From the NCBI RefSeq assembly GCF_000277125.1, contig NC_016946.1, positions 4,340,001 to 4,404,000 of the forward strand: a stretch of 64,000 bases of DNA, given 5' to 3'. Numbering within the stretch: the stretch's first letter is position 1; each line of letters begins with the position of its first letter. This document shows, piece by piece, positions 57,751-63,953 of the stretch. The stretch comes from Mycobacterium intracellulare ATCC 13950. Its GTDB lineage: Bacteria; Actinomycetota; Actinomycetes; Mycobacteriales; Mycobacteriaceae. The notes beneath the pieces are model-generated. The model was not told the origin of the DNA. It did no database searches and saw nothing but the letters and a program-made list of their open reading frames with translations. Made by a program: the position numbers and the translations under genes.

Positions 57751-58629
57751 GTGAGACCCGCTCACTCGGCATCGTCCTCGGCCCGTCCCCCGATTCATCT
57801 CGGTTCCGGCGAGCCGGTCGTGCTACTCCACGGGTTTTTGATGTCGCAGACGGTGTGGGATCCGGTGGCGCCGCGGCTGGCCGACACCGGCCGCTACGAG
57901 GTCTTCGCCCCGACCATGGCCGGGCACAACGGCGGCCCCTACGCGGGCACTTGGCTGCTGAGCTCGTCGGTGCTGGCCGACCACGTCGAACGCCAGCTCG
58001 ACCAGCTCGGCTGGGACAGCGCGCACCTGGTGGGCAACTCGCTGGGCGGCTGGGTGGCCTTCGAGCTCGAGCGGCGCGGGCGGGCCCGCAGCGTCACCGG
58101 CGTCGGCGCCGCGGGCGGGTGGACGCGCTGGAGCCCGGTCAAATTCGAGGTCATCAGCAAGTTCATCGCCGGGATGCCGATCCTGGGACTGGCCCGGCTG
58201 CTGGGCCCGCGCGCGCTGCGGCTGCCGCTGAGCCGCCGCCTGGCCACCCTGCCGCTGAGCGCCACCCCGGAAGGGGTCAGCGACGAGCAACTGCGCGGTG
58301 TGGTCGACGACGCCGCGCACTGCCCGGCGTACTTCCAGCTGCTGATCAAGTCGCTGCTGCAGCCCGGCCTGCTGGAGCTGGCGCAGACCGCGGTGCCCGT
58401 GCAGCTGGTGCTGTGCGAGAAGGACCGGGTGGTGCCGCCCAGCAGGTTCAGCCGGCATTTCACCGACTTTTTGCCGGAGGGAACGAAGATCACCAAGCTC
58501 GACGGCGTCGGGCACGTGCCGATGTTCGAGGCGCCGGAGCGGATCACCGCGGCCATCGCCGACTTCATCGACGAGTGCACCGCGGGCCCGGACCGGCTTT
58601 CCGACCGGCACCGGCCGCCGGCTAGCTAG
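57751..58629 (+). CDS. Alpha/beta hydrolase fold protein
   Basis: A 292-residue hydrolase from GTG 57751; ATG 57709 in frame would add 14 residues but overlaps a likely -10 element. The fold marks are [15 protein letters not shown], the nucleophile Ser in [13 protein letters not shown], the acid in [11 protein letters not shown], and His in [11 protein letters not shown]. tuberculosis has this gene split as Rv3337/Rv3338, while here it is intact. The substrate is unknown. Its end overlaps convergent icd1 by eight bases. Confidence 0.88.
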
Positions 58630-59863
58630 CCAGTTCCTTTTCCAGGTTCTCCGCGATCGAGTCGAGGAATTCCTCGCTCTGCTGCCACTCCTGGTCGGGC
58701 CCGATCAGGATGGCGAGGTCCTTGGTCATCTTCCCGCTCTCGACGGTGGAGACGACGACGTTTTCCAGCGTCTGCGCGAACTCGACCACCTCGGGGGTGT
58801 CGTCCAGCTTGCCGCGGTGCGCCAGTCCCCGCGTCCAGGCGAAGATCGAGGCGATCGGGTTGGTCGAGGTCGGCTTGCCGGCCTGGTACTGGCGGAAGTG
58901 CCGGGTGACGGTGCCGTGCGCGGCCTCGGCCTCGACCGTCTTGCCGTCGGCCGTCATCAGCACCGAGGTCATCAGCCCCAGCGAGCCGTAGCCCTGGGCG
59001 ATGGCGTCGGATTGCACGTCGCCGTCGTAGTTCTTGCACGCCCACACGTAGCCGCCCTCCCACTTGAGGCAGGCGGCGACCATGTCGTCGATCAGCCGGT
59101 GCTCGTAGGTCAGGCCCTCGGCCTCGAACTGCTCCTTGAATTCCTCGTCGTAGATGCGCTGGAACTCGTCTTTGAACATGCCGTCGTAGGCCTTGAGGAT
59201 GGTGTTCTTGGTGGACAGGTACACCGGCCACTTGGCGTTCAGGCCGTACTTGAACGACGCGCGCGCGAAGTCGCGCACGGAGTCCTTGAAGTTGTACATC
59301 CCCATCACCACGCCGCCGTCGTCGGGCAGGGACACCATCTCGTGGACCATCGGCTCGCTGCCGTCGGCCGGGGTGAACGTGATGGCGACGGTGCCGGGCT
59401 TGTCGACCTTGAAGTTGGTCGCCCGGTACTGGTCGCCGAACGCGTGGCGGCCGATGACGATCGGTTTGGTCCAGCCCGGAACCAGGCGTGGCACGTTGGA
59501 GATGACGATCGGTTCGCGGAAGATGGTGCCGCCCAAGATGTTCCGGATCGTCCCGTTCGGCGACAGCCACATCTTCTTGAGGTTGAATTCGGAGACGCGG
59601 GCCTCGTCGGGGGTGATCGTCGCGCACTTGACGCCCACGCCGTGCTTCTTGATGGCGTAGGCCGCGTCGATCGTCACCTGGTCGTCGGTGCGGTCACGGT
59701 GCTCGATGCCCAGGTCGTAGTAGTCCAGATCGATGTCGAGGTGCGGAAGGATCAGCTGGTCCTTGATCAGCTTCCAGATGACGCGGGTCATCTCGTCGCC
59801 GTCGAGCTCGACCACGCGGCCCTTGACCTTGATCTTGGCTTCTTTGGAACCCGGGCTCGACAT
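58622..59863 (-). CDS. icd1: NADP-dependent isocitrate dehydrogenase, dimeric eukaryote-like type
   Basis: A 413-residue enzyme (Rv3339c is 409). [12 protein letters not shown] at the N-terminus, [19 protein letters not shown] with the substrate Ser/Arg/Asn, the metal Asp pair in [20 protein letters not shown], and [10 protein letters not shown] are the family marks. It makes 2-oxoglutarate from isocitrate with NADP. It lies 19 bases after icd2 on the same strand, so both isocitrate dehydrogenases are probably on one transcript. In M. tuberculosis icd2 is elsewhere. Confidence 0.97.
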
Positions 59864-59882: not shown

Positions 59883-62120
59883 TCAGCCTTGTGCGGCGGC
59901 CAGCACTTCGTTGAACGTCTTGCTCGGCCGCATCACCGCCGTCGTCTTCTCGCTGTCCGGGTAGTAGTACCCACCGATGTCGACCGACTCACCCTGCACC
60001 TCGGCGAGTTCGCCCACGATGGTGTCCTCGTTCTCGGCCAACGAGTCCGCCAGCGCGGCGAAGCGCTCGCGCAAATCCTCGTCGTCGTCTTGCGCGGCGA
60101 GTTCCTGGGCCCAGTACAGCGCCAGGTAGAACTGGCTGCCGCGGTTGTCGAGTTCACCGGTCTTGCGCGACGGACTCTTGTTGTTGTCCAACAGCTTTCC
60201 GATCGCGGCATCCAGCGTCTTGCCCAAGAGCTTGGCGCGCTCGTTGTCGGTCTTGATGCCGATGTCCTCGAAACACGCTCCCAGAGCCAGGAATTCACCG
60301 AGGGAGTCCCAGCGCAGGTGGTTCTCCTCGACGAGCTGGTGGACGTGCTTGGGCGCCGAACCGCCCGCGCCGGTTTCGTACATTCCGCCGCCGGCCATCA
60401 ACGGCACGATGGACAGCATCTTGGCGCTGGTGCCCAGCTCCAGGATCGGGAACAGGTCGGTGAGGTAGTCGCGCAGGATGTTTCCGGTGGCGGCGATCGT
60501 GTCCTGGCCGCGCATCGCGCGCTCCAGCGTGTACCTCATGGCCCACACCTGCGGCATGATGTTGATGTCCAGGCCCTCGGTGTCGTGTTCCTTGAGGTAC
60601 TCCTTGACCTTCTTGCGCAGCTCGACCTCGTGCGGGCGTTCGGTGTCGAGCCAGAACACCACGGTCATGCCCGAGTTGCGCGCCCGGGTGACGGCCAGCT
60701 TGACCCAGTCCCGGATCGCTTCGTCCCGCACGATGGGCATGCGCCAGATGTCGCCGGCCTCCACGTTCTGGGTGAGCAGGACCTCCCCGGTGTCGAGGTC
60801 GACGATGTTGGCGACGCCGCCCTCGGGGATCTCGAAGGTCTTGTCATGCGAGCCGTACTCCTCGGCCTGCTGCGCCATCAGCCCGACGTTGGGGACCGTG
60901 CCCATCGTCGTCGGATCGAACTGCCCGTGGGTCTTGCAGAAGTTGATGATCTCTTGGTAGATCCGGGAAAAGGTGGACTCGGGGTTGACGGCCTTGGTGT
61001 CCTTCTGTCGACCGTCGGCGCCCCACATCTTGCCGCCTGCGCGGATCATCGCCGGCATCGACGCGTCGACGATCACGTCGCTGGGCGAATGAAAGTTGGT
61101 GATGCCCTTGGCCGAATCGACCATCGCGAGCTCGGGCCGGTGCTCGTGGCAGGCGTGCAGGTCGCGGATGATCTCCTCGTGCAGCGACGCCGGCAGCGAC
61201 TCGATCTTGCTGTACAGATCGACCAATCCGTTGTTGACGTCGACGCCGAGTTCGTCGAAGAGCTCCTGGTGCTTGGCGAAGGCCTCCTTGTAGAAGATCT
61301 TCACGGCGTGGCCGAAGACGATGGGGTGGGAGACCTTCATCATCGTCGCCTTGACGTGCAGCGAGAACATCACGCCGGTCTCGTAGGCGTCCTGCATCTG
61401 CTCCTCGTAGAACTCGACGAGGGCCTTCTTGCTCATGAACATGGAGTCGATGACGTCGGCGTTGCGCAGCGACACCATCGGCTTGAGCACGATCGTCTCG
61501 CCGCTTTCGGTCTCCAGCTCCATCTTCACGTTGCGCGCGCGGTCCAGCGTCATCGACTTCTCGCCGTGATAGAAGTCGCCGCCGCGCATGGTCGCGACGT
61601 GGGTGCGCGACGCCGGCGACCAGGGCGCCATGCTGTGCGGATGCTTGCGCGCATACTCCTTGACGGCCTTGGGTGCGCGTCGGTCCGAGTTGCCTTGCCG
61701 CAGTACGGGATTCACGGCGCTGCCCAGGCACTTGGCGTAGCGGTCGCGAATTTCTTTGTCCTCGTCGGTCTTCGGGCTCTGCGGAAAGTCCGGAATCTTG
61801 AATCCCTTGCCTTGCAGCTCCTTGACGGCGGCGATCAGCTGCGGCACCGAGGCGCTGATGTTCGGCAGCTTGATGATGTTGGTGTCGGCCAGCTTCGTCA
61901 GCCGGCCCAACTCCGCGAGGTTGTCCGGGACCCGCTGCTCTTCGGTCAGGTGTTCGGGGAACTCGGCGAGGATCCGGGCGGCCACGGAGATGTCGCTGGT
62001 CTTGATCTCGATGCCCGCGGGTTCGGCGAAGGCACGCACGATCGGCAGGAACGCGTAGGTCGCCAGCAGCGGCGCCTCGTCGGTCAGCGTGTAGATGACG
62101 GTCGGCTTTTCGGCGCTCAC
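59883..62120 (-). CDS. icd2: Monomeric NADP-dependent isocitrate dehydrogenase
   Basis: A 745-residue monomeric-type enzyme, GTG start, the size of M. tuberculosis Icd2 (Rv0066c). [19 protein letters not shown] opens the protein; [20 protein letters not shown], the substrate loop, and [16 protein letters not shown] are recognisable. It is unrelated in fold length to Icd1 but does the same reaction. The gene is upstream of icd1 on the minus strand and diverges from metC across a 444-base leader region. Adjacent placement of the two isozymes differs from M. tuberculosis. Confidence 0.97.
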
Positions 62121-62269: not shown

Positions 62270-62387
62270 GGTCATGAGCGCCAGCGACAAGCCCCGGCTT
62301 GCTGGCCGGCAACCCTCCAACCGCGGTGGGGTGCCCCGGGTGATGACCAGGTCTAGTAGCCACAGGCTGCGCGGCAAGCGCGGGTCC
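62270..62387 (+). promoter_or_regulatory. SAM-IV riboswitch upstream of metC
   Basis: GGTCATGAGCGCCAGC opens stem P1, which closes with GATGACC at 62342-62348. The SAM-binding core CCCCGGCTTGCTGGCCGGCA and CAACCCTCCAACCGCGGTGG match the SAM-I/SAM-IV superfamily. The 3' element GCGGCAAGCGCGGGTCC forms the SAM-IV-specific part. SAM-IV leaders in front of mycobacterial metC are known. The last bases, GGGTCCG, can pair either within the aptamer end or with CGGACCC at 62395-62401, giving a switch over the next ribosome site. A -10-like TAAGAT lies at 62252-62257. Confidence 0.9.
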
Positions 62388-62421
62388 GCCATAACGGACC
62401 CCTGACTAGAGGGGACACGTG

Positions 62422-62502
62422 ATGTGCTTCTGTCCAGCTCCTTGCGATCATCGGCTCGCCTTGGTGGAGCCGCTGATGTGCGCGACCGTGCGCCGCTGCT
62501 AG
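62422..62502 (+). CDS. Cysteine-rich 26-residue leader peptide of metC
   Basis: ATG 62422 follows AGAGGGG by seven bases and opens a 26-codon frame ending in TAG at 62500. Cys occupies positions 2, 4, 8, 20 and 26 (MCFCPAPC at the start), a fifth of all residues, against a genome where Cys is rare. It lies between the SAM-IV riboswitch and metC. Cys-rich short frames act as cysteine-sensing attenuators in mycobacteria (known for other sulfur operons). Here stalling at codons 2-8 would cover CTCCT (62438-62442), which can pair with AGGAG (62547-62551) before metC. The peptide itself need not have a function. Confidence 0.65.
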   Translation: MCFCPAPCDHRLALVEPLMCATVRRC

Positions 62503-62564
62503 CCGGCCGGCCGTAAGGCCCCGCTGAAGACCCGAGCCCATATTTCAGGAGAAAGCCAACCCAC

Positions 62565-63953
62565 GTGAGTTCCGACAGTTCTTCTTCCAACGGCACCACC
62601 AGCGAGAACACCGATCCGACCGCGCATTGGTCGTTCGAGACCAAGCAGGTGCACGCCGGGCAGCAGCCCGACCCGGCCACCAACGCCCGCGCCCTGCCGA
62701 TCTACCAGACCACCTCGTACGTCTTCGACGACACCACGCACGCCGCCGCCCTGTTCGGGCTGGAGGTGCCGGGCAACATCTACACCCGGATCGGCAACCC
62801 GACCACCGACGTCGTCGAGCAGCGCATCGCCGCGCTCGAGGGCGGTGTGGCGGCGCTGTTCCTGAGCTCCGGCCAGGCGGCGGCCACGTTCGCCATCTTG
62901 AACATCGCGTGTGCCGGAGATCACATCGTCTCGAGCCCCAGGCTCTACGGCGGGACCTACAACCTGTTCCACTACTCGCTGGCCAAGCTCGGCATCGAGG
63001 TCAGCTTCGTGGAGGACCCCGACGATCTGGATTCGTGGCGGGCCGCGGCGCGGCCGAACACCAAGGCGTTCTTCGCCGAGACCATCTCCAATCCGCAGAT
63101 CGACATCCTGGACATCCCCGGTGTCGGCGGGGTCGCCCACGACACGGGCGTCCCGCTGATCGTCGACAACACGATCGCCACGCCCTACCTGATCCAGCCG
63201 CTGAAGCACGGCGCGGACATCGTCGTGCACTCGGCCACCAAGTACCTGGGCGGCCACGGCTCGGCGATCGCCGGGGTGGTCGTCGACGGCGGCACGTTCG
63301 ACTGGACGCAGGGCCGTTTCCCGGGGTTCACCACGCCGGACCCGAGCTACCACGGGGTGGTGTTCGCCGAGCTCGGTCCGCCGGCCTACGCGCTCAAGGC
63401 GCGCGTGCAGCTGCTGCGCGACCTCGGTTCGGCCGCCGCGCCGTTCAACGCGTTCCTGGTCGCCCAGGGCATCGAGACGCTGAGCCTGCGCGTCGAGCGT
63501 CACGTCGCCAACGCCCAGCGCGTGGCCGAGTTCTTGTCCGGCCACGACGGCGTGCTCTCGGTGAACTATGCGGGACTGCCCAGCTCGCCCTGGCACGAGC
63601 GGGCAAAGGAGCTGGCGCCCAAGGGAACCGGGGCGGTGCTGTCGTTCGAGCTGGCCGGCGGCATCGAGGCCGGCAAGGCCTTCGTGAACGCGCTGAAGTT
63701 GCACAGCCACGTCGCCAACATCGGCGACGTGCGTTCCCTGGTGATCCACCCGGCCTCCACGACGCACGCCCAGCTGTCCCCGCAGGAGCAGCTGAGCACC
63801 GGGGTCAGCCCGGGCCTGGTGCGGCTGGCGGTCGGCATCGAGGGGATCGACGACATCCTGGCCGACCTGGAGCTCGGCTTCGCCGCGGCGGCCAAATTCG
63901 GCGCGACCGCCGGAGCCTCGGGCACCGATCCGCACGCCGTGGCGGCGTTCTGA
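62565..63953 (+). CDS. metC: O-acetylhomoserine sulfhydrylase
   Basis: A 462-residue Cys/Met-metabolism PLP enzyme (Rv3340, metC/metZ), GTG start with AGGAGA 13-14 bases upstream. [20 protein letters not shown] opens the fold after a Ser-rich N-terminus; [36 protein letters not shown] (PLP Asp) and the Schiff-base Lys in [12 protein letters not shown] follow. It joins sulfide to O-acetylhomoserine to make homocysteine for methionine. metA, supplying the substrate, follows after 14 bases. The SAM-IV element and the leader peptide precede it. Confidence 0.97.

Follow-up and report, generated by a model that had tools for sequence, protein, structure and literature searches.

Riboswitches and leader-peptide attenuators have mostly been studied separately. 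In Salmonella, the mgtA leader joins a sensing leader to MgtL, a leader peptide with an excess of one residue. Polycysteine leader ORFs upstream of cys genes in mycobacteria were reportedly treated by Canestrari in 2020. The passages drawn on here from two earlier reports describe such ORFs in mycobacteria (Seliverstov 2005, PMC1262725; Shell 2015, PMC4633059), and the 2005 work put forward a Rho-dependent idea for the cys operons (PMC1262725). The mycobacterial Mbox leader is likewise described with Rho-dependent ends, together with a translational riboswitch and a uORF (PMC12810186). For the SAM-IV riboswitch, a cryo-EM structure places the second PK-2 strand at the 3' end of the aptamer (PMC6890682), RNA-seq in Mycobacterium avium located a SAM-IV leader upstream of an O-acetylhomoserine sulfhydrylase gene (PMC3774663), and control of metC by SAM has been predicted (PMC9232105). 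The metC leader of Mycobacterium intracellulare ATCC 13950 appears to combine both kinds of element. It was analyzed here within a stretch of 64,000 nucleotides of contig NC_016946.1 (positions 4,340,001 to 4,404,000), referred to below as the window.

The leader opens with the sole SAM-IV match found in this genome, which covers the full RF00634 model above its gathering score, followed by two overlapping hairpins, a ribosome site, a short Cys-rich frame, a spacer, and metC (Table 1). The first-pass annotation had read this region as a SAM-IV riboswitch followed by a Cys-rich leader peptide. Each hairpin, the frame, the CTCCT and AGGAG elements, and the metC GTG that it named lie where it placed them, and the arrangement is conserved far beyond the species, both in a survey of leaders and in other genera. 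As anatomy and by its evolution, the layered leader is well supported; its parts, their order, their conservation, and the accompanying statistics are direct observations. The window frame holds Cys at codons 2, 4, 8, 20, and 26 (62425, 62431, 62443, 62479, and 62497) and no two of these are consecutive; its last codon is Cys, and the early Cys codons are far from the stop. An in-frame GTG at 62419 lies ahead of the ATG. The frame in the window appears not to be leaderless: it lies downstream of the aptamer and is served by a ribosome site of its own. A minus-strand match to mir-306 (22 bits, gathering score 52) was taken as chance. The metC product scores 872.2 bits against NCBIfam NF005872.0 (cut-off 703), a match that allows for two products, homocysteine and, as a predicted second activity, cysteine. 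Divergent from metC, two different NADP-dependent isocitrate dehydrogenase genes adjoin one another on the minus strand (58622-59863 and 59883-62120), one of PRK08299 type and one of monomeric type.

Table 1. Features of the metC leader, in coordinates of the window.
Feature	Position	Strand	Basis or score
SAM-IV riboswitch aptamer, RF00634	62270..62386	+	115.5 bits vs gathering score 38; model 1-116/116
Predicted PK-2 3' strand CGCGG, sharing G62382-G62383 with hairpin A	62379..62383	+	helix order (PMC6890682) and sequence
Hairpin A, GGGTCCG/CGGACCC; proposed ON form without SAM, leader-peptide ribosome site free	62382..62401	+	sequence
Hairpin B, CCCCT/AGGGG; proposed OFF form with SAM, hiding leader-peptide ribosome site	62399..62414	+	sequence
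Leader-peptide ribosome site AGGGG	62410..62414	+	sequence
Predicted long-range helix, 5' arm: CACGUG 62416-62421; 62423-62429; CUCCU 62438-62442	62416..62442	+	fold without aptamer
Leader peptide frame MCFCPAPCDHRLALVEPLMCATVRRC, ATG...TAG, 26 codons plus stop	62422..62502	+	
Spacer, leader peptide to metC ribosome site	62503..62546	+	
Predicted long-range helix, 3' arm: metC ribosome site AGGAG 62547-62551 and GTG start	62547..62567	+	
metC, GTG start; bifunctional O-acetylhomoserine/O-acetylserine sulfhydrylase family member	62565..63953	+	NCBIfam NF005872.0

A two-stage leader, in which a SAM gate on peptide initiation is followed by sensing of Cys-tRNA, is the reading that we consider reasonably likely. 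In the first stage, binding of SAM would stabilize the 3' pseudoknot of the aptamer, taking two G of hairpin A; at high SAM, hairpin B would hide the leader-peptide ribosome site, with no peptide made and metC off. In the second stage, at low SAM, the leader peptide would be translated. Scarcity of Cys-tRNA would stall the ribosome on the Cys codons, which in most relatives lie within four codons of the stop, and the stalled ribosome would cover the RNA just behind the frame, allowing metC to be made; with cysteine plentiful, ribosomes would run off and metC would be damped. The last step would most likely be the shielding of a C-rich, G-poor spacer from Rho, and in the window clade it may also include freeing the metC start from a helix formed with the opening codons of the frame. 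We infer rather than observe the responses to SAM and to cysteine, the stalling, and the downstream step, and each is put forward here as a proposal.

The first stage depends on the two hairpins, which have three C in common and are thus mutually exclusive. Both hairpins are present in the letters, and for neither A nor B does covariation go beyond controls. The alignment used (A1) starts from the 83 of 124 platform sequences selected because they carry a G run at the ribosome site; 53 of these have the frame, and 51 of the 53 were aligned. In these 51 leaders, 96.6% of hairpin A cells are paired, a level no higher than that of the shuffle control (211 of 500 shuffles as high); one of its pairs occurs as U-G 34 times, as U-A 14 times, and as C-G 3 times. 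For hairpin B, the mean best stem is 4.35 against 3.77 +/- 0.14 in base shuffles, with 0 of 200 as high, a stem-length comparison that is tilted toward this hairpin by the G-run selection. When the register is held fixed, 78.4% of hairpin B cells are paired, below the 81.6% of the shuffle control, partly because the registers CCCCT/AGGGG and CCCTG/CAGGG coexist. By the proposed gate, SAM would favor the pseudoknot, break the base of hairpin A, let hairpin B form, and shut the first start codon. In several leaders (L008, L009, L035, L093, and others), CAGGGAAACCTG just before the ATG of the frame could fold into a small GAAA-looped hairpin. This hairpin would cover the leader-peptide ribosome site, and CAGG/CCTG is the best stem in 14 of the 124 platforms; it may represent an extra control of initiation, one that the window does not carry.

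SAM-IV is widespread in this group, being present in at least 195 of 198 genomes of the genus and at least 143 of 151 drawn from the family. A first sample of 220 SAM-IV loci was taken from among the matches listed, comprising 31 from this genome and the genus survey, 29 from the family survey, 80 named loci, and 80 others; a usable aptamer anchor was available for 216 (4 loci were left out), and removal of 24 repeats of the same first 140 bases left 192 distinct leaders. Two designs are found. In the short design, metC starts directly behind the hairpins; in the long one, a short frame starts at about that place and metC follows 13-201 bases past its stop (median 67, n=94). The start of the frame thus lies roughly where metC starts in leaders that have no frame, and in two of the latter (L012 and L013) the metC ribosome site occupies the place of the leader-peptide ribosome site. 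Among 179 metC rows (13 of the 192 leaders, with no metC motif or a short protein, being left out), 98 have a Cys frame, 71 are direct, and 10 are long with no Cys, by a Cys-seeking label that prefers the frame richest in Cys and is therefore biased. This label underlies the 98/71/10 split, the metC tree, one count of genera (11 of 16, below), the choice of frame-bearing leaders in alignment A1, and all analyses of 94 leaders, a set made up of the 98 Cys-frame leaders minus 4 with no clear metC ribosome site; rows L009, L025, L026, L031, L054, and L184 are doubtful under it. Absence of the frame from 71 of 179 rows, some of them from close relatives, indicates that the second stage is dispensable. 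A second, blind rule ignores Cys and takes the earliest ATG that lies 42-65 bases past the anchor and has a ribosome site; 24 of the 192 leaders have no ATG in that interval, and 11 of these read as metC GTG starts.

Under the blind rule, a short first frame is found in 104 of the 192 distinct leaders, and Cys occurs in 98 of these frames and at least twice in 68. Cys makes up 230 of their 1513 codons (15.2%), compared with 7.3% and 3.7% in the other two reading frames, 69 +/- 8 Cys after base shuffling (maximum 91 in 500), and 132 +/- 10 after dinucleotide shuffling (maximum 157 in 200). The excess persists in 42 peptide clusters sharing less than 50% identity (86 of 717 codons vs 54 +/- 6, maximum 77 of 500), and no other residue matches it: Cys is the most enriched, with z 19, followed by Arg (8.7), Met (6.6), and His (5.6). 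Against this excess stands the suggestion that the frame is a chance by-product of a GC-rich leader in which the SAM switch alone matters. The 71 frameless leaders and the wide variation of the peptides would fit such an origin; the enrichment over shuffles, together with the blind-rule frame at 26 of 31 metC loci in other genera, makes it barely credible.

The Cys codons are also unevenly placed. Across the 94 leaders, the last four codons are Cys in 36, 24, 45, and 30 cases, compared with only 0-5% at positions 9-13 before the stop; a second peak lies at codon 2 (42 of 94), and CC or CxC occurs in 54 of 94. In the blind-rule set, at most two codons separate the last Cys from the stop in 76 of the 98 Cys-holding frames. 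The peptides include MRASLRPLTRCCCR, MRTFPQPMCCRC, MARSPMRCCCQ, and MCTYPASSDRPMCRIVSRC, and blind-rule frames range from 3 to 44 residues. In the window clade (L001, L033, L034, and L036), all four members keep the Cys of codons 2, 4, and 8 and that of the final codon. Single changes that touch Cys codons are synonymous in 27 of 63 cases against 11% expected among 92 overlapping pairs of leaders, and in just 4 of 14 among 27 disjoint pairs; over all codons the synonymous share is 0.374 (0.273 expected). Outside Cys, the peptide sequence is weakly constrained. That looseness, the span of lengths, and the lack of a frame in 71 of 179 metC leaders speak against a peptide that itself acts, for example as a metal or thiol binder encoded by a small gene under SAM control; MCCCRR-like peptides do recur in several genera, as such a function would predict, and we regard it as very improbable all the same.

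In one clade (L096, L097, L098, L099, L053, and L214), two frames overlap. The ATG at the old position reads MEATHV... or MEASHV..., and another ATG, served by a GGAGG site, opens MCCCP, MCCRP, or MCMCP, as if the Cys peptide had shifted to a new start.

Outside Mycobacterium, 67 SAM-IV loci were compared, 40 of them added and 27 from the family survey, among the matches listed. A metC motif is present at 31 of the 67; at the other 36 it was not found, and "not metC" is used in this sense only. The Cys-seeking rule gives a frame at 26 of the 31 metC loci, in 11 of 16 genera. The blind rule, applied here as the first ATG with a ribosome site, also gives a short frame at 26 of 31, and all 26 contain Cys, which accounts for 60 of 137 codons (e.g. 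MCCCRR, MCSCHE, and MSRCR). At the 36 loci lacking the metC motif, the first ATG belongs to a long gene in 30, is not found in 4, and starts a short frame in 2, which together hold 2 Cys in 102 codons. This blind-rule contrast ties the Cys frame to metC and not to SAM-IV as such. A second gene linked to SAM-IV encodes a protein of Aminotransferase class-V (Pfam PF00266), as checked for two proteins, at L103:511-1857 in Mycobacterium and L224:2-922 in another genus.

The frame might instead be a mere coupler, whose translation keeps Rho off or feeds metC and whose Cys codons are slow codons and not a sensor. Precedent for such a role comes from the uORFs of the M. tuberculosis B12 and Mbox leaders, for which the available portions of the reports mention no amino-acid sensing (PMC11260477, PMC12810186), and from the several Cys codons of Mbox uORF1, which are interpreted as rare codons (PMC12810186). 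Against a coupler stand an enrichment of Cys (z 19) that no other residue approaches, the position of Cys near the stop, and a frame that accompanies metC and not other SAM-IV loci, and we think it unlikely.

The history of the two designs was followed on a FastTree of metC, in which 68 of 176 inner branches are open and one row, L112, is very long. The frame is present in 14 of 15 outgroup rows. Frame and direct states require 29 changes with the long rows lacking Cys omitted, or 33 for one label, and well-supported branches force 12 to 13. Change counts on this tree cannot separate gain from loss. The simplest reading of the pattern would be an old module lost many times, with the metC start approximately replacing the peptide start. 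We lean, by a little, towards a broader form of the two-stage proposal, in which the SAM riboswitch acts on a Cys-tRNA sensor and not on its gene, and metC, an enzyme with two possible sulfur products, requires low SAM and low cysteine together for its production. The arrangement would be family-wide, with repeated loss of the cysteine stage (12 to 33 changes in the tree) and metC then starting at about the old peptide start.

A purely translational attenuation has been considered, in which codons of the frame pair with the metC ribosome site, a stall at the early Cys codons opens that site, and Rho plays no part; for M. smegmatis, one report cites translation attenuation of its cysteine genes (PMC13236596). 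In the window, a predicted long helix does join the start of the frame to the metC start (Table 1). Folded from hairpin B on, the CACGUG:CACGUG segment has a probability of about 0.95; with the aptamer left out, the 62423-62429 segment of the arm has a probability of 0.6-0.87 and CTCCT:AGGAG one of 0.3-0.54, compared with 0.003 for the latter in the fold of the whole leader. The first-pass annotation had centered its switch on this CTCCT/AGGAG pair, which finds no general support: in nine related leaders CTCCT is kept in 7 and AGGAG in 0, and on this result and the whole-leader fold the pair was set aside as a general switch.

Other predictions for the window and its relatives are more favorable to attenuation. 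A ribosome whose A site is at codon 4 is predicted to cut the cost of opening the metC site by 5.0 kcal/mol in the window, and the best Cys positions give predicted gains of 4.6, 4.5, and 3.1 kcal/mol in L036, L042, and L034. Pairing between frame and metC site is strong in L001, L034, and L036; it is absent in the near relative L033. In another clade, the consensus structure predicted for L022 together with six relatives has Cys codons paired with a stretch just ahead of the metC ribosome site, with up to 11 pairs. For the full set of 94 leaders, the predicted gain in opening the metC site from ribosomes placed at Cys codons is 0.94 kcal/mol, which is not beyond codon-order shuffles (1.08 +/- 0.15; dinucleotide shuffles 0.70 +/- 0.15; 12 shuffles of each kind), and general opening of the ribosome site by Cys stalling finds no support here. 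The expected number of pairs between frame and metC site is 5.71, against 3.09 +/- 0.36 in a naive shuffle (60 shuffles). When frames are swapped with those of distant leaders, the comparison over the 94 leaders becomes 5.70 vs 5.43 +/- 0.47 with 7 of 25 as high, and the support drawn from the naive shuffle was withdrawn. Taken clade by clade, pairing surpasses the swapped frames in the window clade and among the nine related leaders, each with 1 of 25 swaps as high, and also among 12 leaders from two other genera, with 0 of 25. In three more clades it does not, with 8, 19, and 4 of 25 swaps as high (the value of 4 belonging to the L022 clade). Because of these swap controls, overall and by clade, the pairing is seen as a plausible local device and not as a shared mechanism, and attenuation of this kind as the whole explanation is possible and rather doubtful.

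Within the two-stage proposal, the spacer offers another route for the last step. C exceeds G in 87 of 87 spacers (the 94 leaders less 7 with spacers under 30 bases), with a mean difference of +0.197, a value reached by 2.2% of 60-base stretches of the window. The 60 bases upstream of 19 other window genes average +0.038 +/- 0.114; C exceeds G in 12 of the 19, more weakly than in the spacers, and one reaches +0.197. The beginning of this C-rich spacer would lie under any ribosome that stalls in the last four codons of the frame. The spacer of the window itself has C minus G of only +0.06, the lowest of the 87, which counsels caution in applying the Rho reading to the window. A general intrinsic terminator in the spacer was ruled out, since stems in the 87 spacers barely differ from those of shuffles (5.74 vs 5.53 +/- 0.12, the highest of 20 shuffles being 5.82) and the spacers are not T-rich (T 15%). 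A GACGYC...GRCGTC hairpin pattern lies behind the stop of the frame in 12 of the 87 spacers, compared with 0.26 expected in shuffles (L035, L047, L056, L081, L087, L143, L144, L160, L166, L167, L183, and L187).

Taken as proposed, one mRNA probably reads two sulfur metabolites in series before the enzyme is synthesized. If true, this would explain how an enzyme that can feed both methionine and cysteine synthesis stays matched to both products. In the sampled genomes, the same aptamer is followed by the cysteine frame in 98 metC leaders and directly by metC in 71, making the contribution of the second sensor directly testable.

Among described systems, Salmonella mgtA with MgtL differs from the metC leader in ligand, residue, and architecture. 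No report of a SAM-IV riboswitch combined with a Cys leader peptide was found among the literature matches listed, as far as the portions available extend, and the metC leader is for this reason regarded as a new series arrangement of two known kinds. With the polycysteine cys leaders it shares a short frame, Cys near the stop, a sulfur-assimilation gene, and the lack of an obvious terminator. The examples of that class given in the sections available are the cys operons, cbs, and cysA2, with cysA2 on a leaderless mRNA (PMC1262725, PMC4633059); the metC frame is unlike them in being led by a ribosome site, lying behind SAM-IV, and preceding metC, and this ribosome-site-led start behind an aptamer puts it outside the leaderless polycysteine class. 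Shielding from Rho by a Cys stall would have parallels in the 2005 idea on cys operons (PMC1262725) and in the Mbox leader with its Rho-dependent ends (PMC12810186), as outlined in those sources. The uORFC-8-2 cysS attenuator of Rhodobacterales, as summarized in its report (PMC8632094), is similar in its tandem Cys codons, short uORF, and proposed role as a tRNA-Cys sensor; it differs in having an intrinsic terminator and no riboswitch. The M. tuberculosis B12 leader (PMC11260477) and the Mbox pe20 leader (PMC12810186) likewise place a uORF in a riboswitch leader, where it is controlled or affects the downstream gene; the parts of these reports at hand make no mention of amino-acid sensing, whereas the metC frame is enriched in Cys, matching the pathway of its enzyme. 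The uORF1 of Mbox pe20 holds TGC, TGC, TGT, and TGT, read in the available text as rare codons (PMC12810186), and is perhaps a Cys sensor itself. With other SAM-IV riboswitches (RF00634) the metC leader has in common its aptamer and its position upstream of metC, and it differs from a plain SAM-IV switch in that the first start codon is that of a Cys leader peptide, as found in 98 of 179 metC rows under the Cys-seeking label.
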